NCBI GenBank assembly: GCA_026989505.1
Contig: JALSJF010000271.1
Span: 1 to 36,585 of the forward strand
Length of the DNA stretch: 36,585 nt
Direction: 5' to 3'
Origin: Cyclobacteriaceae bacterium
GTDB taxonomy: Bacteria; Bacteroidota; Bacteroidia; Cytophagales; Cyclobacteriaceae
The notes beneath the pieces were generated by a model. The model worked only from the letters and a program-made list of their open reading frames with translations, did no database searches and was not told the DNA's origin. Below, piece after piece: positions 1,895 to 16,362 of the stretch; positions within the stretch are counted from its first letter, which is position 1, and every line of letters begins with the position of its first letter. The translations under genes were made by a program, and so were the position numbers.

Positions 1895-2905
1895 GTGAAA
1901 GCGCATATTACGATCAAGGACCTTGCCCGGGAACTTGACATCTCCCCCTCTACGGTTTCCAGGGCCCTGAAAGACCACCCGGATATCAGCCCCGAAACCA
2001 AACGGCAGGTTAAAGAACTTGCCGAACGGCTGCATTATAAGCCTAACCTGATAGCCCAGGGGCTGCGCAAAAGCAAGACCAACACCCTTGGGGTAATTGT
2101 ACCCGAACTTATCCATTTCTTTTTTTCCACGGTTATTTCGGGCATCGAAAATATCGCCTACGCCCGGGGCTATAATGTTATCCTCTGCCAGTCGGATGAG
2201 AACTACGACCGTGAAGTAACCGACACCCGTGCCCTGTGGAACAGCCGCGTAGATGGCATGCTGGTGTCCCTGTCGCGGCAGACGACCCGCTATAACCATT
2301 TTCAGGAGTTGCTCGATGAGGGGTTGCCGATAGTTTTTTTCGACCGGGTTACCGACAAATTAAAAACCAGCCAGGTAATTGTTGATGATTATCTGGGCGC
2401 CTACAAGGCGGTAGAACTGCTGATCAACAAAGGCTGCAAACACATTGTTCACCTGGCCGGGCCGGAAACCCTGGAGATATCGAAAAACAGGTTGCAAGGT
2501 TATGCCGATGCCTTAAAAAGTAATGGCTTTGCCGTCAATAATAACTACATCCACACCTGCCCCCAAGGCACCCACGATGAGAGTAAAGCCCTCACCCTGA
2601 AAATACTGGCCGCCCACCCCGAAATTGATGGCATTTTCGCCTGCAACGATATGGCCGCCCTCGGTAGTATCCTGGCCCTGCAGGAAAAGAATATTGCCAT
2701 ACCCGGCCAGGTAAAGGTAATAGGCTTTAGCGACTGGCAGCTTTCCAGCCTGATCAAACCACGGCTCACCACTGTGTCGCAGGCAGGCTATGAGATGGGC
2801 CAGGAGGCCGCCAGTATATTGATTGACGAAATCGAAGCCAAAGGGGAAATAGTACAGGTAAAAAAGGTGATCAGCACCAAATTGATTGAGCGCGAGACCA
2901 CCTGA
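1895..2905 (+). CDS. LacI/GalR-family transcriptional regulator of the maltodextrin locus
   Basis: A 336-residue protein of normal LacI-family length. Residues 1-55 form the HTH with the signature 'IKDLARELDISPSTVSRALK' and the following hinge helix. The rest is a periplasmic-binding-protein-like effector domain with typical motifs such as 'TLGVIVPEL' and 'DGIFACNDMAALG'. The start is GTG 1895, since an upstream in-frame ATG at 1868 is cut off by a TAG. It lies between the SusE-like gene and the amylase operon, and palindromic sites lie on both sides of its gene. This points to control of both units, with a maltodextrin or its breakdown product as inferred effector. Confidence 0.93.
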   Translation: MKAHITIKDLARELDISPSTVSRALKDHPDISPETKRQVKELAERLHYKPNLIAQGLRKSKTNTLGVIVPELIHFFFSTVISGIENIAYARGYNVILCQSDENYDREVTDTRALWNSRVDGMLVSLSRQTTRYNHFQELLDEGLPIVFFDRVTDKLKTSQVIVDDYLGAYKAVELLINKGCKHIVHLAGPETLEISKNRLQGYADALKSNGFAVNNNYIHTCPQGTHDESKALTLKILAAHPEIDGIFACNDMAALGSILALQEKNIAIPGQVKVIGFSDWQLSSLIKPRLTTVSQAGYEMGQEAASILIDEIEAKGEIVQVKKVISTKLIERETT

Positions 2906-2939
2906 ACCCGCCTGACGGCCCTGACAACCACCCCGCTTC

Positions 2940-2953
2940 TGCAAACGTTTGCA
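2940..2953. promoter_or_regulatory. Putative LacI-family operator O2 (perfect 14-bp palindrome)
   Basis: TGCAAACGTTTGCA is a perfect palindrome with a central CG, the classic form of a LacI/GalR operator. It lies about 35 bases past the regulator's stop codon and 233 bases before the first amylase gene. Confidence 0.72.
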
Positions 2954-2998
2954 AAAAACCTATCCGCTGCCCCAGCTGATTTTTTTTGAAAAATCTCC

Positions 2999-3010
2999 GC
3001 AAACGATTGA
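2999..3010. promoter_or_regulatory. Putative LacI-family operator O3
   Basis: GCAAACGATTGA is the same motif as O1 in the opposite orientation (11 of 12 bases). Its centre is 58 bases from that of O2, so two bound dimers could cooperate upstream of the amylase operon. Confidence 0.58.
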
Positions 3011-3011
3011 A

Positions 3012-3098
3012 TAAGCCTGTATTATAGCTATACTAAGATATTCCCCGCCCCGGTTGCCCATGGGTACGGCCGGTAGTTTTTAAGCCTGTATTTTATAG
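3012..3098 (+). repeat. Direct repeat TAAGCCTGTATT..ATAG in amylase operon promoter region
   Basis: TAAGCCTGTATTATAG at 3012-3027 recurs as TAAGCCTGTATTTTATAG at 3081-3098, with starts 69 bases apart and a two-base insertion in the second copy. Both lie between the operators and the first amylase gene. They could be duplicated promoter elements or activator sites. I did not find an exact TAnnTTTG box here. Confidence 0.4.
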
Positions 3099-3185
3099 TT
3101 TAATTTAGTCGGCCCATGCCAGCCAATTATCCTGGCAAAGAGGTTGGCCCGGTATGGATAACTACTGGTTTAAGATGAGTGAATT

Positions 3186-5564
3186 ATGCATCATGCTACT
3201 GTAAAGCCTATCCTTGGGCTGCTCTTGCTAACACTGGCAAGCGGCTGCAGCCAACAGCAACCGGCATTGCCGGCCGAATCAGGCAATAACCTGGTAGGCC
3301 TGGCCAGTGTTATCAACCTTGCACCTAAGGGCAATAAAGTGCGTGTTGAAGATTATTTTGTCAACCCCGGGCTGATTGATTCCGTTGCCTGTACCTCCCT
3401 GCCTGTGCATCTTTCGGCAGACGGCAAATTCTTCGTTTTTACCGGTGTGCCCAACCGTCCGCTGGGGGTGCTGCAAGTGTATTCGGGCGATACGGTATTT
3501 GCCCTGCCCGTACGCAAATCAGCCAGGGTAAACACGGTCTTCTCTTTTGCCGACCCGGATAAAAAATACCAAACCGTGCAAATTGCCGGGGATATCAACC
3601 AGTGGAACCCGCAACTGGGCGACATGGAATACCGGCAGGGTACCTGGCAAAAATCATTCTGGCTGCCCCCCGGCCCTTACCAGTACCAGTTGGTGCTCGA
3701 TGGCCAGTGGGCCCTGGACCCGGCCAACCCCGACTCGGCCGACAACAATATCGGAGGCTACAACTCGCTGAGGATAGTTGCAAGCCCCTCCGCAGTAAGG
3801 CCAAAACTATGGACGATCGCCCATACCGATATCTCGGTAACCATCGGCAGTGAAAACACAACCGAAATCCTGGCATTATGGCAAAACCAGCAAATCCAAC
3901 CGAAACATATAATTAAAGGCGTGGAAGGCACCACCATTTACATCCCCGAAGCCGCCAAAAACCAGAAACGCAGCTATATCCGGGTGTATGGGGCCAACGA
4001 AAATAATGTTGGCAACGATTTATTTATTCCGCTGGATTACGGACAGGTGCTGACCAGCCCCGAACAACTGGCCCGTTCCGACTGGCATAGCAATATCCTT
4101 TATTTTATGATGGTTGACCGGTTTTTTAATGGCGATCCTGCCAACGACAGCCCCCTGAACAGCCCCGAAGTCAACCCCAAAGCCGATTATTTTGGTGGCG
4201 ATATAAAAGGGATTACCGAAAAGATCAAGGGTGGTTATTTTGCCGGTTTGGGAATCAACGCAATCTGGTTGTCGCCTATCGTGCAAAACCCGCTGGGGGC
4301 TTACGGCCTCTACCCCAACCCCAAAACCAAGTTCTCGGCCTACCATGGCTATTGGCCGGCCTCCTGGAACCGTGTTGACTCTCGCCTCGGCAGCCCTGCC
4401 GACCTGCATGAACTGGTAACTATTGCTCATGAACACAATTTGAATGTGTTGATTGACTTTGTCGCCAACCATGTGCATGAAGAGCATCCCATCTATAAGC
4501 AACACCCCGAATGGGCCACCAGCCTGTACCTGCCCGATGGCAGCCTGAACACCGAGCGCTGGGACGAATACCGGCTTACCACCTGGTTCGACACCTTTTT
4601 ACCTACCCTCGACCTGACCAACCCCGAACTTACCGCCATGCTTACCGATTCGGCCGTGTTCTGGCTCAACGAATACGACCTTGATGGTTTCCGCCACGAT
4701 GCCACCAAGCATGTGCCGGGATATTTCTGGCGACAACTGACCCGGAAGATCAAACAAGAGGTAGTCATCCCCCGGAAAAAAACCATCTACCAGATTGGCG
4801 AAACCTACGGCAGCCGCGAACTGATTGCCAGCTACATCAACTCAGGCGAAATGGACGCCCAATTTGATTTTGGCGTGTATGACAATGCCCTGGCCTGCTT
4901 TGCCCGCGATAACGTACCTTTTGCCCGCCTGCAAACGGCCCTGAACGAGTCCTTTAAATATTATGGGCACCACCACCTTATGGGCAATATTACCGGCAAC
5001 CAGGATAAGCCCCGGTTTATGGCTTATGCCGGAGGCGACCTGCGTTTTGATGAAGACAGCAAACGGGCCGGCTGGACCCGCAACATAACCGTAACCAACC
5101 CCCTCGGTTACGAAAAATTAAAATCGTTCATGGCCTTTACCCTTACTATCCCCGGCATCCCGGTTATTTATTATGGCGATGAAATAGGCATGACCGGGGC
5201 CAACGACCCCGACAACCGCAGGCAAATGCGTTTTAAACTTACCAACGAAGACGAAAAAGAAGTAAAGGCTACTGTTGCCCGGCTGACAAAACTGCGCAGG
5301 AATACTATCGAACTTAGTTATGGTGATTTCCGGTGGCTGCATGTGGATGATGACATTATGGCCTTTGCCCGGACCTATTTTCAGGATATTTCGGTAATCG
5401 CTTTTAATAAAAGTGCCGAGGTGCAGGCAGTACAATTGCAACTGCCCGCCACCTATAAAAAGGTAGAGCTATTTGACCTGACCAACACCAGGGTTGACAA
5501 CAACAATGGTTTTATCAGCCTTAGTTTACAACCCCATAGTTTTATGATTATCCAAACCAAATAA
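3186..5564 (+). CDS. GH13 alpha-amylase/neopullulanase-like lipoprotein with N-terminal CBM48-like domain
   Basis: A 792-residue glycoside hydrolase expected to cut alpha-1,4 glucans outside the cytoplasm. The signal ends in a lipobox (LASGC, Cys21). Residues about 120-200 resemble a CBM48/glycogen-binding fold ('VQIAGDINQWNPQ'). The GH13 barrel begins near residue 305 ('YFMMVDRFFNGD'). Conserved region I is DFVANH near 424. The nucleophile is Asp505 in 'DGFRHDAT', the acid/base is Glu539 in 'QIGETYG', and the third acid is Asp607 in 'GNQD', where the usual His of NHD is Gln. A C-terminal beta domain follows about residue 715. It is the first gene of a five-gene operon, with one base before the next start. 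Cyclomaltodextrinase activity is also possible. Confidence 0.9.
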   Translation: MHHATVKPILGLLLLTLASGCSQQQPALPAESGNNLVGLASVINLAPKGNKVRVEDYFVNPGLIDSVACTSLPVHLSADGKFFVFTGVPNRPLGVLQVYSGDTVFALPVRKSARVNTVFSFADPDKKYQTVQIAGDINQWNPQLGDMEYRQGTWQKSFWLPPGPYQYQLVLDGQWALDPANPDSADNNIGGYNSLRIVASPSAVRPKLWTIAHTDISVTIGSENTTEILALWQNQQIQPKHIIKGVEGTTIYIPEAAKNQKRSYIRVYGANENNVGNDLFIPLDYGQVLTSPEQLARSDWHSNILYFMMVDRFFNGDPANDSPLNSPEVNPKADYFGGDIKGITEKIKGGYFAGLGINAIWLSPIVQNPLGAYGLYPNPKTKFSAYHGYWPASWNRVDSRLGSPADLHELVTIAHEHNLNVLIDFVANHVHEEHPIYKQHPEWATSLYLPDGSLNTERWDEYRLTTWFDTFLPTLDLTNPELTAMLTDSAVFWLNEYDLDGFRHDATKHVPGYFWRQLTRKIKQEVVIPRKKTIYQIGETYGSRELIASYINSGEMDAQFDFGVYDNALACFARDNVPFARLQTALNESFKYYGHHHLMGNITGNQDKPRFMAYAGGDLRFDEDSKRAGWTRNITVTNPLGYEKLKSFMAFTLTIPGIPVIYYGDEIGMTGANDPDNRRQMRFKLTNEDEKEVKATVARLTKLRRNTIELSYGDFRWLHVDDDIMAFARTYFQDISVIAFNKSAEVQAVQLQLPATYKKVELFDLTNTRVDNNNGFISLSLQPHSFMIIQTK

Positions 5565-5565
5565 T

Positions 5566-6936
5566 ATGCTTAAACAACCCACATTAATCTTTTTTATCAC
5601 CCTGTTGCTGGCCGGCTGCCAAAGTAAGCCCCGGCAGGAAGAAACTATTGACTTCCCCCCCACCAGTACCCCCCCGGAGTGGACAAGGAATACCAGTATC
5701 TACGAAGTAAATATCCGGCAATATACCCCGGAAGGAACTATCAGGGCTTTTAGCCAACACCTGCCGGCCATCAAGGCCCTGGGAACCGATATCCTGTGGT
5801 TGATGCCGATTTACCCTATTGGCCAAGAGCAGCGCAAGGGTAGCCTCGGCAGTGCCTATTCGGTGCTGGACTACCGGGCGGTAAACCCTGACTTCGGAAC
5901 CATGGAAGATTTACAGGATTTGGTACGCCAGGCCCACAGTAGGGGCATGTACGTCATCCTCGACTGGGTGGCCAACCATACCGCCTGGGACAATCCGCTG
6001 GCCAAAGAACACCCCGAGTGGTACCACAAAGATGAAAAGGGCAATTTTACCCCCCCGGTGGATGACTGGAGTGATGTTATCCACCTGAACTATGAAAATG
6101 AAGAGCTGCGCCAATACATGATTGAATCGCTGAAATTCTGGGTAGAAACTGCCGATATTGACGGGTTTCGCTGTGATGTGGCCATGATGGTACCTACCGT
6201 TTTCTGGGAACAAGCCCGCCACGAACTGGATAAAATAAAGCCGGTATTTATGCTGGCCGAGGCCGAAGAGGCAGACCACTTAACCTATGCCTTTGATATG
6301 AACTATGGCTGGGAACTACACCATATCATGAATGAAATAGCCCGGGGAAAGATGAATGTGGACAACCTTACCGGCTACCTGAAAAAATACGACAGCCTTT
6401 ATGGTGCCGATGCCTACCGGATGAATTTTATCACCAACCATGACGAAAACTCCTGGAACGGCACCCTTAATGAACGTATGGGCGAGGCCCAACAGGCCAT
6501 GGCCGCCCTGATGGCCACACTGCCCGGTATGCCGCTCATTTATAGCGGCCAGGAAGCAGGCCTGGACAAAAGGCTTAAGTTTTTTGAAAAAGACACCATC
6601 AACTGGCAGGAAAGCAGGCTGCGTTGGTTTTACACCACCTTACTGCAACATAAAAAGAAAAACAAGGCCCTGTGGAATGGCGCGGCTGGCGGCAAGCTGG
6701 TTACGCTGGCCACTTCACAGCCCACAAAGGTATTTGCCTTTACCCGCGAGAAAGACGGTGACCGGGTTTTGGTTGTCTTAAACCTAAGCAACAGCGAAGT
6801 TGAGTTCACCTTTACCGCCCCGCCTGCTACCGCCCAGTTAAGCGACCTGTTTAATGCCGGGGGGCGGGAAGCCTTAAGCACCATGCCGGTAAAAATGGCA
6901 CCCTGGGCCTATATAATTTTAACCAGCCAGCCATGA
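5566..6936 (+). CDS. GH13 alpha-amylase-family lipoprotein
   Basis: A 456-residue GH13 enzyme with a short lipoprotein signal (LLLAGC, Cys18), so anchored outside the cytoplasm. Unlike its upstream neighbour it has no N-terminal glucan-binding domain. Catalytic residues read clearly: DWVANH for region I, Asp204 in 'DGFRCDVA' as nucleophile, Glu232 in 'MLAEAEE' as acid/base, and Asp293 in 'TNHDEN' as the third acid. The chain ends in a beta domain ('KVFAFTREKDGDRVLVVLNL'). It starts one base after the previous gene's stop region and overlaps the transporter start by four bases, so translation is probably coupled. It likely produces maltose and short maltodextrins for the transporter. Confidence 0.9.
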   Translation: MLKQPTLIFFITLLLAGCQSKPRQEETIDFPPTSTPPEWTRNTSIYEVNIRQYTPEGTIRAFSQHLPAIKALGTDILWLMPIYPIGQEQRKGSLGSAYSVLDYRAVNPDFGTMEDLQDLVRQAHSRGMYVILDWVANHTAWDNPLAKEHPEWYHKDEKGNFTPPVDDWSDVIHLNYENEELRQYMIESLKFWVETADIDGFRCDVAMMVPTVFWEQARHELDKIKPVFMLAEAEEADHLTYAFDMNYGWELHHIMNEIARGKMNVDNLTGYLKKYDSLYGADAYRMNFITNHDENSWNGTLNERMGEAQQAMAALMATLPGMPLIYSGQEAGLDKRLKFFEKDTINWQESRLRWFYTTLLQHKKKNKALWNGAAGGKLVTLATSQPTKVFAFTREKDGDRVLVVLNLSNSEVEFTFTAPPATAQLSDLFNAGGREALSTMPVKMAPWAYIILTSQP

Positions 6937-8435
6937 GAAAACCGCAATTGTCATTCTGGCAAATCTGGAACATGAGCTTCGGCTTCCTGGGCATCCAGTT
7001 TGGTTTTGCCCTGCAAAATGCCAATGTCAGTCGTATTTTCGAAACCCTGGGGGCCTCGGTAGCCGACATCCCCATCCTCTGGGTAGCCGCTCCGGTAACC
7101 GGCCTGATCGTGCAACCTGTCATCGGCCACCTGAGCGATAAAACCTGGAACCGCCTGGGCCGCAGAAGGCCGTATTTTCTGGTGGGGGCTGTTTTTGCCA
7201 GTGCCGCCCTGTTTTTTATGCCCAATTCACCAGCTCTATGGGTGGCAGCCGGCATGTTGTGGATCATGGATGCCTCAATAAACATCTCCATGGAGCCGTT
7301 CCGGGCTTTTGTGGGCGATATGCTACCCGAAGAACAACGTACCCGCGGCTTTGCTATGCAGAGTTTCTTTATTGGCACCGGGGCGGTAATTGCTTCTGCC
7401 CTGCCCTGGGTGATGACCAACTGGCTTGGTATAGCCAACACAGCAGCCGCAGGCCTGATCCCCCCATCGGTTAAGTTTTCGTTTTACATCGGGGCTACGG
7501 TTTTCCTGTTGGCCGTGTTGTGGACGGTCCTCTCCACCAAAGAATATTCCCCCGCAGAGCTGGCCTCATTTGCTAAAGAAGATGACGAAGGTAAGGCAGC
7601 AGCCCGGGAAGTCCACTTCAGCGAAAAAATAAGCCACCGGCCCTGGCTCATCCACGGCATCTTGTGGCTGGTTGGCGGCTTGCTCATCAGTTATGGCATA
7701 TTTTATTTCCGTTTGGAAAAGGAACTCTATATCCTTGGCTTTGGCCTGGCCACTTTCGGTATCCTGCAGGTTGTCACCAAACTGCTGCTGCTTACCAACA
7801 AGGTTAGCAGTGGTTTTGTGGAAGTAATGAGTGACCTGTTTACCATGCCCAGAACTATGGCGCAACTGGCTGTTGTGCAGTTTTTCTCCTGGTTTGCCCT
7901 ATTCGCCATGTGGATTTACACCACCTCCGCAGTAACCAGCCATATTTACGGCACTACCGACACCCAATCAGCACTTTATAATGACGGGGCCGACTGGGTG
8001 GGCATCTTGTTTGCGGCCTACAACGGCTTTGCCGCTTTGCTGGCTTTTGCCCTGCCGGTAATTGCCCAGAAAACCAACCGTAAAATCACCCACCTCACGG
8101 CCCTGGTATTTGGTGGCCTGGGGTTGATTTCTATCTACTTTTTTACTGGCCCACTGTATTTACTGATCTCAATGTTTGGTGTGGGCTTTGCCTGGGCCAG
8201 TATCCTCTCCATGCCCTATGCCATGCTTACCAGCGCCCTGCCGGCCAATAAAATGGGAGTGTATATGGGCATCTTTAACTTTTTTATTGTTATTCCGCAG
8301 ATACTGGCGGCCAGCATCCTGGGGTTTATTACCAAATCCCTGTTTGCCGGCCACGCCATTTATGCCCTCGTGCTGGGAGGGGCTTCGATGATTGTAGCCG
8401 GGCTGCTAACCCTTACTGTAGATGATAACGGCTGA
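6933..8435 (+). CDS. MFS sugar transporter, GPH/SLC45-like (maltose/maltodextrin importer)
   Basis: A 500-residue membrane protein with about 12 hydrophobic segments. Near residues 66-80 it has 'GHLSDKTWNRLGRRRPYF', the loop signature of sucrose/maltose cation symporters (GPH and SLC45 types). The start ATG overlaps the preceding stop as ATGA. Its place between amylases and the maltose phosphorylase pair indicates import of maltose or short maltodextrins across the inner membrane, probably with a proton. Substrate specificity is inferred from context only. Confidence 0.9.
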   Translation: MRKPQLSFWQIWNMSFGFLGIQFGFALQNANVSRIFETLGASVADIPILWVAAPVTGLIVQPVIGHLSDKTWNRLGRRRPYFLVGAVFASAALFFMPNSPALWVAAGMLWIMDASINISMEPFRAFVGDMLPEEQRTRGFAMQSFFIGTGAVIASALPWVMTNWLGIANTAAAGLIPPSVKFSFYIGATVFLLAVLWTVLSTKEYSPAELASFAKEDDEGKAAAREVHFSEKISHRPWLIHGILWLVGGLLISYGIFYFRLEKELYILGFGLATFGILQVVTKLLLLTNKVSSGFVEVMSDLFTMPRTMAQLAVVQFFSWFALFAMWIYTTSAVTSHIYGTTDTQSALYNDGADWVGILFAAYNGFAALLAFALPVIAQKTNRKITHLTALVFGGLGLISIYFFTGPLYLLISMFGVGFAWASILSMPYAMLTSALPANKMGVYMGIFNFFIVIPQILAASILGFITKSLFAGHAIYALVLGGASMIVAGLLTLTVDDNG

Positions 8436-8449
8436 TTATTTTAACTGAG

Positions 8450-9100
8450 ATGAAAATGATAAAGGGCTTTATTTTTGATCTGGATGGCGTAATAGTAGAT
8501 ACTGCCAGGTACCACTACCTGGCCTGGAAGCGCCTTGCAGATGAACTGGCTATCCCCTTTACCGAGAAAGACAACGAGCGCCTGAAAGGGGTAAGCCGGG
8601 GACAATCGCTGGATATTATTTTGTCCCTGGGCCATAAAAAATTACCGGAACAGGAGAAACATGCCCTGGCCACCAAAAAGAACAATTGGTACGTAGAATA
8701 TATCATGCAGATGACCCCGGCCGAAATATTGCCGGGTGTTTTACCCTTTTTAACGGCAGCGAGGGAAATGAAGATTAAAACCGCCCTGGGCTCAGCCAGC
8801 AAAAATGCCGGCACTATCCTCAACAAGCTAAACTTAACCGGTTTTTTTGATGTAGTGGTTACCGGCAATGAAGTAAGCAAGGCCAAACCCGACCCCGAAG
8901 TGTTTTTACTGGGGGCAAAAGGCCTGGGCTTACCACCGGCTGCCTGCCTGGTATTTGAAGATGCCGGGGCCGGCATTGAGGCTGCCCGCAGAGGGGGAAT
9001 GAAGAGCATCGGCATTGGTTCGGCAGCGGTTTTAGGCAAGGCCAACCGGGTAGCAGGCGGGCTCCACGAACTAAGCGTTGAAGAAGTGCTGAAGATTTGA
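8450..9100 (+). CDS. pgmB: Beta-phosphoglucomutase
   Basis: A 216-residue HAD-superfamily enzyme that converts beta-glucose-1-phosphate to glucose-6-phosphate. Motif I is 'FDLDGVIVDT' with nucleophile Asp10 and acid/base Asp12. Motif II is 'LGSASKNA'. The Lys motif is 'KAKPDPEVF', followed by the Mg-binding 'FEDAGAGIEAA'. Length and motifs fit PgmB rather than a general phosphatase. An ATG two codons later (8456) is an alternative start. Adjacency to the GH65 phosphorylase, which makes its substrate, settles the assignment. Confidence 0.93.
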   Translation: MKMIKGFIFDLDGVIVDTARYHYLAWKRLADELAIPFTEKDNERLKGVSRGQSLDIILSLGHKKLPEQEKHALATKKNNWYVEYIMQMTPAEILPGVLPFLTAAREMKIKTALGSASKNAGTILNKLNLTGFFDVVVTGNEVSKAKPDPEVFLLGAKGLGLPPAACLVFEDAGAGIEAARRGGMKSIGIGSAAVLGKANRVAGGLHELSVEEVLKI

Positions 9101-9132
9101 AGAATGATTTTAACCACTAAAAATATTAACGG

Positions 9133-11457
9133 ATGAAGGATTACATTCTCAAAGATGAATGGAATATCATCGAAAATAAATTTATCCCCGGGTACAACCG
9201 GATATCGGAAAGCATATTCAGTATTGGCAACGGCCACATGGGCCAACGGGCTAATTTTGAGGAAACCTACAGTGGCGACAGCCTGCAAGGCTCCTACCTC
9301 GCGGGTGTTTATTACCCCGACAAAACCCGGGTCGGCTGGTGGAAAAACGGCTACCCGGAATATTTTGCCAAGGTAGTAAATTCAATCAACTGGATTGGCG
9401 TTAAGGTTACCCTTGACGGGCAGGAGCTCGACCTGGCCAACTGTGTTATCCATAATTTTGAGCGCAAGCTCGACATGTATAACGGCATCCTCAGCCGCAC
9501 AGTGGAGTTTACCAATGCAGCCGGCCGCAGGTATAAACTTGCTGCCACCCGGTTCCTGAGCATCAAAGAACCGGATGCCGCCCTCCTCCACTATAGCATC
9601 ACCCCGGTGGCCTCTGCCGCTACCATTGAACTGGAGCCCTACCTTGATGGCGATGTAACCAACGAAGATGCCAATTATGATGAGAAGTTCTGGTTTGCCG
9701 TACCCGGGGAAGATAATGACAACATGGTGTTGATGGAAACCTACAAAACAGGTTTCCGGGCCTGTGCCGCCATGAAGGCGTTTTTTACCCTCAATAACAA
9801 CCCCCTGAAGGAAAATAGTACCAGCCGTACCCGGCCGGGCTATACAGCCACCAGTATGGTTGCCGCAGTAGAGGCCGGGGAGGTGGTTAGCGTTACCAAA
9901 TATGTGGCTATAGCTATCTCGCTTTACCATGAAAAAGACAAATTGCCCGAAGTGGCCGGAGAAAAAGTTGCTGCCCTGGCCGCCAGGGGATTCCAGGCGT
10001 TAAAAGAAGAACACGAGCAGCAATGGCACCGGAAATGGCAGGAAAGTGACATTAAAATTACCGGTGACACCGCAGCCCAGCAGGCTATCCGGTATAATAT
10101 TTTCCAGCTCTACCAAACTTACACCGGGGATGACCCGCGGCTGAATATCGGCCCCAAAGGGTTTACCGGGGAAAAGTACGGGGGCGTTACTTACTGGGAT
10201 ACCGAAGCCTACTGCCTGCCCTTTTACCTGCGCACAGCCGGTAAACACGTGGCCCGCAACCTGTTGAAATACCGCTACCACCACCTGCCCAAAGCCATTG
10301 AGAATGCCGCCCGGCTGGGCTTCGGCAAGGGCGCTGCCCTCTATCCCATGGTGACCATCAATGGCGAAGAGTGCCATAATGAGTGGGAAATTACTTTCGA
10401 GGAAATCCACCGTAACGGGGCCATTGCCTATGCCATCTACAATTATGTAAACTACACGGGCGATGAAAGCGTAATTACCGATTTTGCCCTGGAAGTGCTG
10501 ATTGCCATTTCGCGTTTCTGGGCTCAACGGGTGAGTTGGTCGGCAGCAAAAAAAGCCTACGTTATCCTGGGCGTAACCGGCCCCAATGAATACGAAAATA
10601 ATGTCAACAATAACTGGTACACCAACACCATAGCCAAATGGACCTTAGAATACACCCTGGAACAAATTGCCCGCCTGAAAAATGATGACCCGCAAGGGTT
10701 AGCCAAAACCCTGGCCAAAACAGGCTTTGCCGAAGACACCGAAACCCGGCAATGGGCAGAGATCATCAAGGCCATTTACCTCCCCTTCGACCCCGGCAGA
10801 GAAGTGTTTCTGCAACAAGATGGCTTCCTTGACAAGGAACTGGTACCAGTCAGCCAATTGCCGGCCAGCGAGCGGCCCATTCACGCCAACTGGTCCTGGG
10901 ACCGCATCCTGCGCTCCTGCTATATTAAGCAAGCCGATGTCTTGCAAGGCCTATACATGTTTGAAAACCGCTTTGACAAAGAAACCATTGCCCGCAACTT
11001 TAATTTTTATGAGCCCCTTACAGTACACGAATCATCCCTGTCGGCCAGCATCCACTGCATTCTGGCCAATTATATCGGCCATCATGAAAAGGCCTATGAG
11101 ATGTACTTACGTACCGCCCGCCTCGACCTGGATGATTATAATGACGATACCTGTGACGGCCTGCACATCACCAGTATGGGCGGCACCTGGATGGCCATTG
11201 TTGAAGGTTTTGCCGGCCTGCGGGTAGAAGACGGCCACCTGAAGCTAAACCCTAACCTGCCAGCCGGTTGGCAAAGCTTCTCCTTCCGTATCATCTTCCG
11301 CGAAGCCTTGCTGAAAATTACCATAACCCATGAAGAAACCGTGATTGACAACACCTCCGCGCAGCAAATAGCGGTAAAAATCGGCCCGGAGTTGCTCACC
11401 GCTCTTCCCAACGCCAGGGTTAAACACAGGCACAACCAGGCCAAAACCATAGCCTGA
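9133..11457 (+). CDS. GH65 maltose phosphorylase
   Basis: A 774-residue cytoplasmic enzyme with no signal peptide. The family cleaves maltose with phosphate, giving glucose and beta-glucose-1-phosphate. GH65 landmarks are visible: N-terminal 'SIGNGHMGQRANFEE', the (alpha/alpha)6 barrel beginning near residue 330 ('YNIFQLYQTY'), the general acid Glu486 in 'GVTGPNEYENN', and 'KQADVLQGLYMF' near the phosphate site. Kojibiose or trehalose phosphorylase cannot be excluded from sequence alone, but the amylase context favours maltose. It is the last gene of the operon. Confidence 0.9.
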   Translation: MKDYILKDEWNIIENKFIPGYNRISESIFSIGNGHMGQRANFEETYSGDSLQGSYLAGVYYPDKTRVGWWKNGYPEYFAKVVNSINWIGVKVTLDGQELDLANCVIHNFERKLDMYNGILSRTVEFTNAAGRRYKLAATRFLSIKEPDAALLHYSITPVASAATIELEPYLDGDVTNEDANYDEKFWFAVPGEDNDNMVLMETYKTGFRACAAMKAFFTLNNNPLKENSTSRTRPGYTATSMVAAVEAGEVVSVTKYVAIAISLYHEKDKLPEVAGEKVAALAARGFQALKEEHEQQWHRKWQESDIKITGDTAAQQAIRYNIFQLYQTYTGDDPRLNIGPKGFTGEKYGGVTYWDTEAYCLPFYLRTAGKHVARNLLKYRYHHLPKAIENAARLGFGKGAALYPMVTINGEECHNEWEITFEEIHRNGAIAYAIYNYVNYTGDESVITDFALEVLIAISRFWAQRVSWSAAKKAYVILGVTGPNEYENNVNNNWYTNTIAKWTLEYTLEQIARLKNDDPQGLAKTLAKTGFAEDTETRQWAEIIKAIYLPFDPGREVFLQQDGFLDKELVPVSQLPASERPIHANWSWDRILRSCYIKQADVLQGLYMFENRFDKETIARNFNFYEPLTVHESSLSASIHCILANYIGHHEKAYEMYLRTARLDLDDYNDDTCDGLHITSMGGTWMAIVEGFAGLRVEDGHLKLNPNLPAGWQSFSFRIIFREALLKITITHEETVIDNTSAQQIAVKIGPELLTALPNARVKHRHNQAKTIA

Positions 11458-11542: not shown

Positions 11543-11576
11543 ATTAAACTTGGAAAAAATTAAAAATCAGATCAAA

Positions 11577-12470
11577 ATGCTTAACCGTAGAATTAACTTA
11601 TTACAAATCGTAGCGCTTTTTGCCGCAGCGGTGATGATATCATGTGGTGGCGAGAAAAAGCAAACCCAGGATGAATCAGCAGAATTTGATGCCGCTAAAG
11701 AAAGCTTGAAAAAAAATATTGAAGGGGTAATGTATAACATTCCTTCCCCTGCCGAACTTCCTTACCTGCTGCAGGCCACAGGAGCTGATTATAACCCCTC
11801 CTTTGTCAACAATAAAGACGCTGCCGACAAATACATGTCAACCTTTGACAAAGCGGCCATGAACCTGGGCATCTATGCAGCCGATATCGGTTACCTGAGT
11901 TCGTATGAACAAACCCAGGAAGCCCTGGATTACCTGCAAATTGCCAAACAACTGGCCGACCACCTTGGTGTTGTTGACGCTGTGGATGAGATGGTTATGA
12001 AACGCTTTGAAGATAACATTGATAACCGCGATTCCCTGAGTACCATCATCAATGGCGCCATCGAAAATGTAGATAAATATTTAAAAACCGAAGCCCGTAA
12101 CCGGGTAGCAGCCCTGGTTACCACCGGTAGTTTTATCGAAGGCCTGTACCTGTCAACCGAACTGGTAAGGACTTACCCCAGGGATTTACTCCCTGAAGAT
12201 GCCCGTAACCTGATTTTAACCCCGGTAATCCAGATCATCCTCGACCAGGAGAAGTCTGTTGGCGAACTTATTAAATTGATTGAATCAATCCCGGAAGATG
12301 ATTTAACCAAACGCATTAAAACAGATTTGATGCGACTACAGCGCAACTATGCCGACCTGAACATGGAGGAGCAAATAAAAGATAACCGGGCTGACCTGAT
12401 GCTGACCGACAAGACCTTAGAAGACATTACGGTTACCGTTAACAAAATGCGGAGTGATATCATCAAATAA
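11577..12470 (+). CDS. Unknown helical lipoprotein
   Basis: A 297-residue protein that I do not recognise. The ATG at 11577 gives a clean lipoprotein signal, MLNRRINLLQIVALFAAAVM ending in ISC, with lipidation at Cys23. The mature part is acidic, almost wholly predicted helical, and lacks enzyme motifs. The segments 'GADYNPSFVNNKDAADKYMS' and 'MNLGIYAADIGYLSSYEQT' look like conserved family blocks. It has its own promoter box and a strong terminator, so it is probably a single-gene unit. A periplasmic or outer-membrane structural role is possible, but no function is claimed. Confidence 0.8.
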   Translation: MLNRRINLLQIVALFAAAVMISCGGEKKQTQDESAEFDAAKESLKKNIEGVMYNIPSPAELPYLLQATGADYNPSFVNNKDAADKYMSTFDKAAMNLGIYAADIGYLSSYEQTQEALDYLQIAKQLADHLGVVDAVDEMVMKRFEDNIDNRDSLSTIINGAIENVDKYLKTEARNRVAALVTTGSFIEGLYLSTELVRTYPRDLLPEDARNLILTPVIQIILDQEKSVGELIKLIESIPEDDLTKRIKTDLMRLQRNYADLNMEEQIKDNRADLMLTDKTLEDITVTVNKMRSDIIK

Positions 12471-12487: not shown

Positions 12488-12518
12488 AAAAGGCTGTTTG
12501 TTCAAACAGCCTTTTTTT
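12488..12518 (+). terminator. Rho-independent terminator
   Basis: The inverted repeat AAAAGGCTGTTT / AAACAGCCTTTT has a four-base loop (GTTC) and runs into a stretch of seven T. It lies 18 bases after the lipoprotein stop and before the ABC fusion gene, separating the two units. Confidence 0.85.
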
Positions 12519-12547: not shown

Positions 12548-15500
12548 ATGAGCAAAGCGTTACTCGAAGCCCTGATCAGGTTGCTGGCCATTCTGGCCAA
12601 AGAAGATGGCGTTACCAAGGAAGAGCGTGAAAAAGTAAGACTGGTACTCAAAAACAGGCTTAACGATGAACAGGTGAAAGAATACATAAAACTGTTCGAC
12701 AAAGAAGTAGCCCACTTGCTCAACGCTACCGACAGGGCTTCTGATGAAGATTTGATTACTTCCCTGAGCCGGTCATTAAATCAAGAGCTTACCCGTCATC
12801 AAAAAATAGCCGCCCTTATCCAGCTTTCAGCCATAACCATGGCCGATGGCGTAATTACCAAAAGAGAAGCCGAACTTATTGAACTTATCCGGGAAAATTT
12901 TCATGTTGACAGTGAAGAACAGGAAGCCATAAACTTATTCGTACAAGGGCGCTCTCCCGGACAACTGAACAGCGCTAATATCCTCATTATTGATGAAAAT
13001 GATTATGCAGGCACCGACAGCCGGTTCCACCATATCCACCGGCAACCGATAAACGGGTATATCGGCATAATCCACCTTCCCAAGTCAAACTCATATTTTA
13101 TCAAGAATATGGGACGCAACCTGGTGTTTGTTAATGGTGTTGCCCTGCCCGAAAACCATATCAAACCTTTTCCGCCCGGCAGTTCCATCAGGGGGAAATT
13201 TGCCACCATTTACTATACCGATATTGTCACCAGGTTCCAGGAAGCACAAAACCTGCCCAGGCTATCGCTGGAGGTTAACCATATCAGTTATACCTTTAAA
13301 AACGGCCATGTGGGCCTCAGGGATATTCATTTTGCCGAGAATTCAGGGAAACTACTCGGCATCATGGGCGCCAGCGGGGCGGGCAAGTCCACCCTGTTGA
13401 ATGTTTTGAATGGCACCGACAAACCTACTTCCGGCCAGGTGCTGCTGAACGGGGTAGATATCCACGAGAACCCTGCATTTATTGAAGGGGTAATTGGCTT
13501 TGTACCCCAGGACGACCTGCTTTTTGACCAGCTAACGGTATATCAAAACCTGTTTTATGCGGCTAAGTTGTGCTTCAGCAACTATACCAACGAGGCGATC
13601 GACCAACTGGTAAATAAAACCCTTACCAACCTGGGGCTCCTGGAAATCAAAAACCTGCAAGTAGGCTCACCCTTAGATAAAGTTATCAGCGGTGGCCAGC
13701 GTAAACGGGTAAACATTGCCCTGGAACTCCTGCGCGAGCCCAGCATCCTCTTTGTTGATGAACCTACCTCCGGGTTGTCCTCACGCGATTCGGAGAATAT
13801 TATGGACCTGCTGAAGGATTTGTCACTCAACGGGAAAATTGTCTTTGTCGTTATCCACCAGCCTTCTTCGGTGATCTTTAAGATGTTCGACCGCCTGCTG
13901 GTGCTGGATACCGGTGGTTACCAGATATTTTATGGCGATCCGGTGGAATCCATTATCTATTTCCGCGAAGTGGCCAAGTTACTTGATAGCGACCAGGGGG
14001 AATGCGGGCAATGTGGCAATGTAAACCCCGAACAGGTGTTTGATATTATTGAAACCAAAGTGGTGGATGAATACGGCAATTTAACCAACACCCGTAAGGT
14101 TACCCCCGCAGAATGGAACCGGTTTTATGAAACCAACCTCAAACAACTGCCCATCAGCACTTCAGATGAAAAACCACAATCTTCGTTAAGGTTGCCCACC
14201 CCCTGGAAACAAACCAAGATATTTGTCCTGCGCGATGCCCTGGCCAAGCTGACCAATAAACAATATATTTTGATCAACCTGCTGGAAGCCCCGGTACTGG
14301 CCATGATCCTGGCGTTCTTCGTTAAGTACTCGCCCACGGCCGAATATGTTTTCCAGAAAAACCAGAACATCCCCTCCTACCTGTTCATGAGCATTATCGT
14401 GGCCTTATTTATGGGCCTGACCGTAAGTGCCGAAGAGATTATCAAAGACCGTAAAATACGCCAACGCGAGGCTTTTCTCAACCTCAGCAATAGCAGTTAT
14501 ATCACCTCCAAACTAATTACCCAGTTTGCCATCTCGGCCATCCAGACCTTCCTGTTTGTTTTGGTTGGTAACAGTATCCTGGGTATCCATGGCATGTTCT
14601 TCACCCTCTGGGGCATCATGTTCACCACCGCTGCTTTTGCCAATATCCTGGGACTGAATATTTCGGCAGCCATGAATTCTGTAGTTACAGTATATATCAT
14701 CATCCCTTTCCTTATCATCCCGCAACTATTGCTCAGCGGGGTGGTAGTTAAGTTTGACCAGTTAAACAAGCTTATCCGTAATGAGGTAAACGTACCTGTC
14801 ATCGGAGATATGATGGTCTCGCGCTGGGCCCTTGAAGCGGCCCTGGTGGCACAGTTTGTTGACAATGAATTTGAGCAGCGGTTTTACAAGGTGGATGAAC
14901 AAATTGCCGGCAACCGTTACCTTACCGTGTACTTACTGCCTACCCTCGAAACAATGTTGAAGGAAGGGTTTTCCCTGGCCCAAAAGGATAAAAACGATGC
15001 CCGGGCTGCAGAGAAACTGGAAATTGTTTATAATGAGGTGCGTGAGTTACTGGCGAAAGTAGGGCAAGACCAACTGCCCGTGGCCGACCAACTAACCCCT
15101 GGCCAAATCACCCCCGAAGTGGTAAAGCAAACCAGCGGGTTTTTAAAAGTTTATAAAACCTTCATCCAGAAAAAGCAGGAAGCTGCCATTGGCCAAAAGG
15201 ACAAAATAATTGGTGCGATGGTAGCCAAGGGTGAATACGAGCCGCTGAAAAACAGGTATTATAATGATGTGGTAGCCCAAACAGTAACCAATAGTTTATC
15301 CACCAACCGCATTGTGGCCAAAGATGGCCGGTTGCACCGTCTCTCCGACCCGGTATTTTATACCAACCACCAGCCCCGTCACCTGCTGGATTACCGCACC
15401 CCACTATATGTGCCCAGCAAACATTTTGCCGGGATGACCATCAGCACTACCTATTTCAACATGGTGGTTATTTGGTTTTTAACCCTGTTGCTGATTATTG

Positions 15501-15556
15501 CCCTGTACAACGACTGGCTGAAAAAACTTTTCAGGCTCTTTGAGAAGAAGCCCTAA
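12548..15556 (+). CDS. TerB-like / FHA-like / ABCG-type ABC transporter fusion protein
   Basis: A 1002-residue half-transporter of unusual build. Residues about 1-140 form a helical TerB-like domain ('LAILAKEDGVTKEEREKVR', later 'ITMADGVITKREAELIELI'). Residues about 145-235 look like a degenerate FHA fold ('FVNGVALPENHIKPFPPGSS'). The ABC ATPase follows, with Walker A at 274-282 (GASGAGKST), signature SGGQRKR, Walker B 'ILFVDEPTSGLSSRDS' and the H-loop His in 'VIHQPSS'. An ABC2-type membrane domain has five helices up to about residue 735. A soluble, partly charged insert of about 230 residues comes next, then a last helix near 970-990. Substrate unknown. The ATPase-before-membrane order is that of the ABCG/White family. 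It ends in a four-base tail-to-tail overlap with the MOSC gene. Confidence 0.85.
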   Translation: MSKALLEALIRLLAILAKEDGVTKEEREKVRLVLKNRLNDEQVKEYIKLFDKEVAHLLNATDRASDEDLITSLSRSLNQELTRHQKIAALIQLSAITMADGVITKREAELIELIRENFHVDSEEQEAINLFVQGRSPGQLNSANILIIDENDYAGTDSRFHHIHRQPINGYIGIIHLPKSNSYFIKNMGRNLVFVNGVALPENHIKPFPPGSSIRGKFATIYYTDIVTRFQEAQNLPRLSLEVNHISYTFKNGHVGLRDIHFAENSGKLLGIMGASGAGKSTLLNVLNGTDKPTSGQVLLNGVDIHENPAFIEGVIGFVPQDDLLFDQLTVYQNLFYAAKLCFSNYTNEAIDQLVNKTLTNLGLLEIKNLQVGSPLDKVISGGQRKRVNIALELLREPSILFVDEPTSGLSSRDSENIMDLLKDLSLNGKIVFVVIHQPSSVIFKMFDRLLVLDTGGYQIFYGDPVESIIYFREVAKLLDSDQGECGQCGNVNPEQVFDIIETKVVDEYGNLTNTRKVTPAEWNRFYETNLKQLPISTSDEKPQSSLRLPTPWKQTKIFVLRDALAKLTNKQYILINLLEAPVLAMILAFFVKYSPTAEYVFQKNQNIPSYLFMSIIVALFMGLTVSAEEIIKDRKIRQREAFLNLSNSSYITSKLITQFAISAIQTFLFVLVGNSILGIHGMFFTLWGIMFTTAAFANILGLNISAAMNSVVTVYIIIPFLIIPQLLLSGVVVKFDQLNKLIRNEVNVPVIGDMMVSRWALEAALVAQFVDNEFEQRFYKVDEQIAGNRYLTVYLLPTLETMLKEGFSLAQKDKNDARAAEKLEIVYNEVRELLAKVGQDQLPVADQLTPGQITPEVVKQTSGFLKVYKTFIQKKQEAAIGQKDKIIGAMVAKGEYEPLKNRYYNDVVAQTVTNSLSTNRIVAKDGRLHRLSDPVFYTNHQPRHLLDYRTPLYVPSKHFAGMTISTTYFNMVVIWFLTLLLIIALYNDWLKKLFRLFEKKP

Positions 15557-16332
15557 GCAAGGATGGTAACCGGATCGTTCTCGTGGATAATACCGGTATT
15601 TTCGGGGATAAGGTTAACCCCAAAATAAACTTTCTTACCCTCCCTTCGGTAAGTACCCAGGGTGCGGAGCGGTTCCTTGCCGGTTGTACCGGTTTGCTGG
15701 TCAATAGTAACCACATGGCAACGGGCACAGCGTTTGGCCACCCTGAAACGGATGGCACCGATTTGCAGCCGCTGCCAGTTGTCTTCGGCATAAGGCGCCA
15801 GGCCGCCCACCACTATATTGGAACGGAAACGCCCCATGTTTACCGGAGCCTCCAGACGGCTGTTCAAATCATCAAGGGAAGATTGACACGTTAATAGCAC
15901 CGGGTAGCCATCGGCAAAACTTACCGGGTCGGCCGGAGATGATTTAAGCGGCCGGTAATCTTCTTCGGCCATATAAACCAAGGTTACCTCCTGCCCCAGC
16001 ACATCGCTCAGCCATGGGTTAATGCTATTTACCGCGGCATGGGCTTTAAACACCTGGCCCCAGACCTCAACTTCTACGGTAGCCGTAAAGGCGGCCTGGT
16101 CCACCATCATTTCGTTGCCCGAGGCCAGGTGCCTGATCAGCAAATGATCTTCTAAAACCGGCTGCAGGCCCGTTAACGCAGTCAACTGCCGCTGACTGAT
16201 AAATTTCCCCGCCCCGTCAACCAGCATCCAGCGCCTGTCCATGCCCAGGCCACGTTTGTTTACCGCAGCACAACATAAGCGGTTGCCCCGTAGCCCTTTA
16301 ACCGGATATTCATATAACCCTGTAACCCGCAT
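15553..16332 (-). CDS. MOSC-domain protein (YcbX/mARC-like)
   Basis: A 259-residue protein of the YcbX/mARC type: an N-terminal beta-barrel domain ('LYEYPVKGLRG', 'GLGMDRRWMLVD') and a C-terminal MOSC domain ('MGRFRSNIVVGG'). Cys202 and Cys205 in 'KRCARCHVVTID' sit where family members bind the molybdenum cofactor. Relatives reduce N-hydroxylated compounds or act as sulfur carriers, and the substrate here is unknown. ATG 16332 was chosen because the frame's upstream start would be TTG, and family members begin close to the 'YPVKG' motif. The stop overlaps the converging ABC gene by four bases. It follows the SDR gene by 30 bases and is probably co-transcribed with it. Confidence 0.85.
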   Translation of the reverse strand: MRVTGLYEYPVKGLRGNRLCCAAVNKRGLGMDRRWMLVDGAGKFISQRQLTALTGLQPVLEDHLLIRHLASGNEMMVDQAAFTATVEVEVWGQVFKAHAAVNSINPWLSDVLGQEVTLVYMAEEDYRPLKSSPADPVSFADGYPVLLTCQSSLDDLNSRLEAPVNMGRFRSNIVVGGLAPYAEDNWQRLQIGAIRFRVAKRCARCHVVTIDQQTGTTGKEPLRTLGTYRREGKKVYFGVNLIPENTGIIHENDPVTILA

Positions 16333-16362
16333 TAACCCATTACTGTTAACCAATACCAGCCC

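Follow-up and report, generated by a model that had tools for sequence, protein, structure and literature searches.

Among the ABC transporters that have been described, we take Rv1747 of Mycobacterium tuberculosis to have the layout nearest to that of the protein considered here. Rv1747 comprises one or more FHA-type modules, a nucleotide-binding domain (NBD), and a transmembrane domain (TMD), and is a proposed exporter under phosphorylation-dependent control (PMC5549992), and its gene shares an operon with the kinase gene pknF (PMC3908365). The best solved relatives are the eukaryotic PDR/ABCG transporters (among the best 60 of 215 matches). The other described system that bears on this locus is the SiaABCD partner switch of Pseudomonas, in which SiaA is the phosphatase, SiaB the kinase, and Thr68 the phosphosite of SiaC (PMC7647112), and in which SiaC is reported to activate SiaD by binding to it, an interaction that phosphorylation of SiaC precludes (PMC8457831). 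Partner switches are known to control sigma factors and diguanylate cyclases (PMC8457831, PMC7647112), and DUF1987 proteins have been suggested to be common modulators of the proteins encoded beside them (PMC8457831). Within the open-license literature, judged mostly from titles and the opening lines of abstracts, we recognized no account of the transporter family described below, of TerB joined to an ABC transporter, or of SiaC beside one, and found no paper that brings a partner switch, SiaC, and an ABC transporter together.

The transporter examined here is encoded within a 36,585-nucleotide stretch of DNA from a Cyclobacteriaceae bacterium, the whole of which we refer to as the window. Like Rv1747, it places an FHA-type module ahead of one NBD and TMD, but it differs by an added TerB domain, an FHA-like domain without conserved phosphothreonine residues, and a last loop of ~236 residues, while its family differs further by the neighboring switch genes SiaB/SiaC and a linked lipoprotein. 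The NBD precedes the TMD as it does in the eukaryotic PDR/ABCG transporters (CDR1, ABCG1, ABCG2, White), from which the protein is set apart by its bacterial regulatory head and by the far greater size of the loop that joins helices 5 and 6. With the Pseudomonas SiaABCD system (PMC8457831, PMC7647112), the family shares SiaC and DUF6272/SiaB genes, and at one locus (L032) Pfam recognizes SiaC (PF09345), DUF6272/SiaB, and also a HAMP-GAF-PAS-SpoIIE phosphatase-type protein. Unlike in Pseudomonas, the adjacent gene encodes an ABC transporter instead of the diguanylate cyclase SiaD.

Architecture of the transporter

Table 1. Positions of the transporter, its domains, and its upstream neighbor in the window
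Feature	Residues	Position	Strand	Basis or remark
TerB / FHA-like / ABCG-type half transporter		12548..15556	+	ATG start, 1002 aa
TerB domain	7-128	12566..12931	+	Pfam TerB 36.6 bits, cut-off 24.4
Divergent FHA-like domain	~144-228 (limits estimated)	12977..13231	+	Profile comparisons
ABC nucleotide-binding domain	~240-470	13265..13957	+	Pfam, ATPase motifs
Linker motif CxxCGNxNPEQxF	486-498	14003..14041	+	Family alignment
Transmembrane helices 1-5	~561-732	14228..14743	+	Pfam ABC2_membrane, hydropathy (ends by eye)
Extracytoplasmic loop ECL3 between helices 5 and 6	733-968	14744..15451	+	Long helices, then uncertain part
Transmembrane helix 6, then K/R-rich tail	~969-989	15452..15514	+	Hydropathy (ends by eye)
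LP, putative lipoprotein		11577..12470	+	297 aa from ATG (TTG at 11550: 306 aa); Cys codon 11643-11645
Terminator-like hairpin + T run, LP/transporter intergenic		12488..12515	+	12-pair stem

A single chain was confirmed to run from TerB through the FHA-like segment and an ABCG-type ATPase to five transmembrane helices, a loop of ~236 residues, and a sixth helix (Table 1). The first-pass annotation had proposed that TerB, at the N terminus, and a degenerate module resembling FHA are fused in one chain to a half transporter of the White/ABCG type, whose loop ahead of the last helix is unusually large. Each of these points is supported, the FHA-like module by profile evidence only. Both ABC_tran (residues 257-408, 109.4 bits) and ABC2_membrane (residues 555-743, 72.2 bits) scored above their Pfam cut-offs, and an NBD followed by an ABC2_membrane TMD in one chain is the arrangement of an ABCG/White-type half transporter. 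The top NCBIfam match was the White/pigment-precursor ABCG subfamily (residues 228-739), and since its 245 bits compare with a cut-off of 736, we name the transporter ABCG-type and not a member of the pigment-precursor subfamily. Family members were compared across 74 loci (the window, L021, L024-L035, and L066-L125), a non-random set that was picked by hand, mostly from the top-scoring matches; alignments A2, A3, A4, and A5 hold 61/74, 56/74, 45/64, and 38/55 members, respectively, having been shortened by eye, mostly by near-duplicates, without a fixed rule. The ATPase motifs are complete: nine of the ten positions examined are identical in all 74 members, and the tenth, the S/T position of Walker A, has S in 66 members and T in 8. 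The linker carries a CxxC pair located after the ATPase and before an NPEQ motif, with each Cys kept in 73 of the 74 members, for which a redox or metal role would be conceivable; the linker motif resembles the NPADF motif of ABCG transporters. Searching the window for Rfam families and tRNA genes yielded no matches.

Pfam matched TerB (PF05099) in 67 of the 74 members at E≤0.01. Structure prediction of the N-terminal part, a check that the first-pass annotation had proposed, gave a model for only one of the two modules: AlphaFold2 run on the single sequence modeled the TerB region as helical (block pLDDT 66-89), whereas the FHA-like region remained under a pLDDT of 50 and gave no usable model. 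In Foldseek, the TerB model had no match under E 0.001, and the highest probabilities were those of 2h5n, a P. gingivalis protein (0.85, E 0.83), and of the TerB-type tellurite-resistance protein 2ou3 (0.38, E 1.5). When the TerB segment was searched against the PDB as a single sequence, four chains matched at E≤1, but no name among them pointed to TerB.

For the FHA-like segment, there was no Pfam match in the window protein (E≤0.1 for the whole protein and E≤1 for the segment alone), and the assignment draws upon profile comparisons. Using a profile of the segment from 61 of the 74 members, the Mek1 FHA domain was the sole PDB chain at E≤10 (E 0.19), while FHA (PF00498) was also the commonest Pfam match among the individual members (3 of 61 at E≤1, best 0.0086). 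Comparison by hhalign with 31 FHA domains gave P 0.00035 with a score of 24.3 and a probability of 37%. None of 300 column-shuffled versions scored as high (≤20.5), and against the same 31 domains two unrelated control profiles gave P 0.26 and 0.58 and the reversed profile P 0.11. This set contains all 9 domains of one collection and 22 of the 27 from another; L141, L152, L158, and L163 were dropped as near-duplicates and L146 for a wrong frame, and L147, L155, and L160 are also outside. The signal was weaker with 9 FHA domains (P 0.018; controls 0.48 and 0.15) and stronger with the 31. The match spans 51 columns, including NG and GD-like turns. FHA domains contact phosphothreonine through GR, SxxH, and N residues, of which the S, H, and N columns could be compared, the GR stretch being outside the alignment. 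The column aligned with the serine is variable, the histidine column is I, L, or V in most of the 61 members, and the asparagine column contains N in just three, one of which is the window protein. Phosphothreonine reading by this domain was rejected on the grounds that these three contact columns lack conservation. We refer to the segment as FHA-like and divergent, or degenerate, and, judging from these columns, it is probably not a reader of phosphothreonine.

Hydropathy indicates five transmembrane segments between residues ~573 and ~732 and a sixth at ~969-989, and the soluble part shows two further, weak peaks. Given five helices ahead of it and a sixth followed by a K/R-rich tail, the ~236-residue loop should be outside of the cytoplasm. 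The stretch between residues 731 and 969 measures 230-274 residues in the 74 members (median 239). A loop before the last helix occupies the usual position of ABCG extracellular loop 3, which is typically far smaller, and we consider it to be that loop, greatly enlarged. AlphaFold2 was run on loop residues 742-968 with two sequences (window and L021), giving a mean pLDDT of 58.6; the model contains three long helices at a block pLDDT of 68-91, with both ends under 50. With the loop profile, 27 PDB chains matched weakly at E≤10, the best at 0.059; many are coiled-coil or helical proteins and none is convincing, and the model had no Foldseek match under 0.001.

Family distribution and recurrent neighbors

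The fusion had initially been regarded as rare, which did not stand up to a wider search. Full-length transporters were found in 157 of the 295 genomes of a class sample (14-row profile, E≤1e-120, two candidates scored per genome), the transporter is present in 31 of 39 genomes comprising the window's own genome and its relatives, and the window's genome alone encodes three full-length paralogues. At the level of the phylum, one sample contained the transporter in 5 of 198 genomes (one sequence, E≤1e-100) and another in 5 of 296 (loop profile, E≤1e-10), these being the same five genomes. Set against 157 of 295 in the class, such counts indicate that the family is patchy and that the figures depend upon the draw, and we read the contrast as patchiness combined with different draws. 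Judged from its sequences, the full-length architecture is a conserved bacterial family rather than a rare fusion.

Two genes recur beside the transporter. The lipoprotein gene LP lies within three genes of it in 63 of the 74 loci (none within six in the other 11), and c6, the gene for a small protein whose N terminus looks like a signal sequence, lies within two genes in 53, with contig ends counted as misses, which explains some of the absences here and in all neighbor counts from these loci. The order seen most frequently is LP, c6, transporter, to which SiaC and SiaB are at times added as a convergent pair on the opposite side; another is a phosphatase-size gene, SiaB, SiaC, transporter, LP, c6. 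In the window, LP is upstream of the transporter and c6 was not found nearby. The hairpin between the two genes implies that a common transcript is not required; its stem is the longest of 7 sites found, where shuffling expects 6.8 sites. The lipid-attachment Cys of LP is invariant in 45 aligned members, and a lipobox-like motif was detected by pattern in 51 of 64 LP members and in 2 of 55 c6 members, the c6 signal sequence being judged by eye. In homology searches of Pfam and the PDB, the matches to LP and c6 were all weak and scattered (best PDB E 0.067 for LP and 0.031 for c6). Across the 295 genomes of the class sample, 153 contain both transporter and LP, 4 the transporter alone, 9 LP alone, and 129 neither, which, like all of our co-occurrence counts, are raw values that include shared ancestry. 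LP matches in the class sample reach at least seven per genome, seven being the number of candidates scored; thus, LP may have partners besides the transporter.

Several arrangements depart from the common pattern. L089 (1271-4815) contains tandem LP/c6 repeats (two LP and three c6) on the strand opposite to a SiaB-SiaB-SiaC-transporter run. A paralogue group (L024 2540-5656 and L029-L031) has no LP within six genes; its neighbor is a tail-specific protease in L024, while in L029-L031 it adjoins a small protein and an enzyme of the histone-deacetylase family. The window also includes an alpha-glucan utilization cluster at 1895-11457, consisting of a LacI-type regulator, two GH13 enzymes, an MFS transporter, a beta-phosphoglucomutase, and a GH65 enzyme, and in L021, too, LP and the transporter come after MFS, mutase-size, and GH65 genes of a similar kind. 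On the other side, the ORF of a MOSC-domain protein (15553-16353, minus strand) shares four bases with that of the transporter, and a related gene also follows in L021.

SiaC and SiaB genes beside the transporter

SiaC is encoded within two genes of the transporter in 25 of the 74 loci (none that close in 49) and SiaB within three genes in 22. Among the 39 genomes mentioned above, SiaC occurs in 27, 26 of which also contain the transporter. Of the 26, 21 have a SiaC match upstream of, and on the same strand as, a transporter match, the spacing between matches being 41-215 bp in 20 genomes and 828 bp in one. This count used 48 distinct SiaC places out of ~110 and 54 of 60 transporter places (fragments excluded), and for the five genomes scored as non-adjacent the remaining SiaC places were also checked. 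Elsewhere, SiaC is convergent, downstream, or ahead of LP, and such varied placements argue against mere inherited synteny. The class sample has 153 genomes with both transporter and SiaC, 4 with the transporter alone, 19 with SiaC alone, and 119 with neither; the window's own genome is among the exceptions. Three genomes from one genus of the window's family show no transporter, LP, or SiaC. SiaC is often multi-copy (19 matches in G490 and, with up to 14 candidates scored per genome, at least 14 in each of G490, G471, G392, and G200), so its presence in a genome says little without adjacency, and targets beyond the transporter are likely. The neighboring SiaC proteins keep a YFNTSSSK motif, of which the T is conserved in at least 90% of the 26 proteins compared and NTS in 21 of them. 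In the L068 SiaC, the motif Thr is residue 68 by counting in that protein alone, which is also the number of the Pseudomonas phosphosite.

It should be noted that five genomes bear the transporter (G463 as fragments only) but gave no SiaC match: that of the window, that of its congener (G458), G464, G491, and G463. No siaC match therefore lies beside the transporter in the window's genome, and since both this genome and its congener lack SiaC, the switch cannot apply to the window copy. The window and congener copies must either be unswitched or under another regulator.

Candidate mechanism and its alternatives

Our leading interpretation, to which we assign a probability of roughly 0.45, is that the family consists of ABCG-type exporters that SiaC gates from the cytoplasm and that cooperate with LP on the outer side. 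The protein would be an ATP-driven exporter and, from its half-transporter layout, probably a homodimer; dimerization is known from ABCG structures. Its cytoplasmic TerB and FHA-like head would serve as a protein-docking platform. In lineages having the switch, the state of SiaC would be set by its kinase, SiaB, together with a phosphatase of the PP2C type, and unphosphorylated SiaC may then dock on the head and alter ATPase or transport activity, much as SiaC acts upon SiaD in Pseudomonas. By analogy, SiaC acting on the transporter head would be the simplest transfer of the Pseudomonas knowledge. If LP and c6 are exported, as their lipobox patterns and signal sequences read by eye would suggest, only the outer side of the transporter is within their reach, which is where the enlarged loop is found. 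There, the 236-residue loop may contact LP, plus c6 where present, and both might receive or guard the exported substrate. The sequences show the domain anatomy, the conserved ATPase motifs, a hydropathy-based topology, and the recurring neighborhood and co-occurrence, from which we infer the LP/c6-loop and SiaC-head contacts, the direction of regulation, and the use of ATP for export over other work. Against this interpretation stand the transporter-bearing genomes that gave no SiaC match, the multi-copy state of SiaC, the loci with no SiaC or LP nearby, and, in the window, the hairpin between LP and the transporter. That a PP2C/kinase/SiaC switch directly toggles the transporter via the TerB/FHA-like head, with a dedicated lipoprotein and the secreted protein engaging the giant periplasmic loop, is a tentative proposal to which we give somewhat less than even odds; it would make the family a class of signal-gated exporters that is absent from the papers searched.

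Distance correlations were of little help in assigning these contacts. SiaC distances correlate best with TerB (partial 0.53), as do those of LP and c6, and for LP the partial values (TerB 0.49, ECL3 0.37, FHA 0.35) do not single out the loop. Because LP and c6 also correlate best with TerB, this domain may be merely the best marker, and we rejected the correlations as placing LP on the loop or SiaC on TerB, given that all of them favor TerB.

The enlarged loop could also be viewed differently, as the means by which the ATPase drives mechanical work in the periplasm, such as lipoprotein extraction or envelope remodeling, in place of small-substrate export. MacB- and FtsEX-like systems perform work of this kind, and both the large conserved helical loop and the recurrent lipoprotein partner would fit, but the transmembrane part is of the ABC2_membrane/ABCG type, whose known members are mostly exporters, and we regard this possibility as unlikely. 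On the cytoplasmic side, the FHA-like domain might regulate the pump by reading phosphothreonine on SiaC or another protein, as in a control system like that of Rv1747. The order of FHA, NBD, and TMD agrees with that of Rv1747 (PMC5549992), and many loci have an adjacent gene whose product carries a Thr-phosphosite motif; however, the unconserved S, H, and N columns and the finding, in Pseudomonas, that phosphorylation precludes SiaC-target binding (PMC8457831) make such control quite improbable.

We think it even more doubtful that TerB is a sensor of metal, oxyanion, or membrane stress and the pump a means of resistance. The window's TerB does exceed its Pfam cut-off, and TerB is named for tellurite resistance, yet no ter, metal, or drug-resistance gene was recognized in the 22 most widespread neighbor clusters of the 74 loci, most of which were judged from the opening residues of one member, and the second ADG motif of the window protein is absent from the family consensus. 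The step from TerB to metal, oxyanion, or drug stress taken in the first-pass annotation thus found no support, and metal or oxyanion resistance was rejected as a candidate function, there being no such gene recognized among the recurrent neighbors. Its broader suggestion that stress sensing is coupled to export survives in part: coupling of an internal signal to transport is retained, and with LP, c6, and SiaC/SiaB as the recurrent neighbors the signal is likely the SiaC partner switch instead of stress. Least credible of all is a role for the transporter in serving the adjacent alpha-glucan utilization cluster. The MFS, beta-phosphoglucomutase, and GH65 genes upstream in the window, and their counterparts in L021, are what speak for it, but among 14 loci compared these neighbors are common to L021 only, on which basis the link was rejected, and we recognized no alpha-glucan gene among the 22 most widespread clusters.

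In many genomes a partner switch adjoins a membrane pump, which provides a testable target for the SiaC proteins of Bacteroidota. Likewise, the LP family, which has no Pfam name and accompanies the transporter in 153 of the 157 class-sample genomes that contain it, gains its first functional setting.
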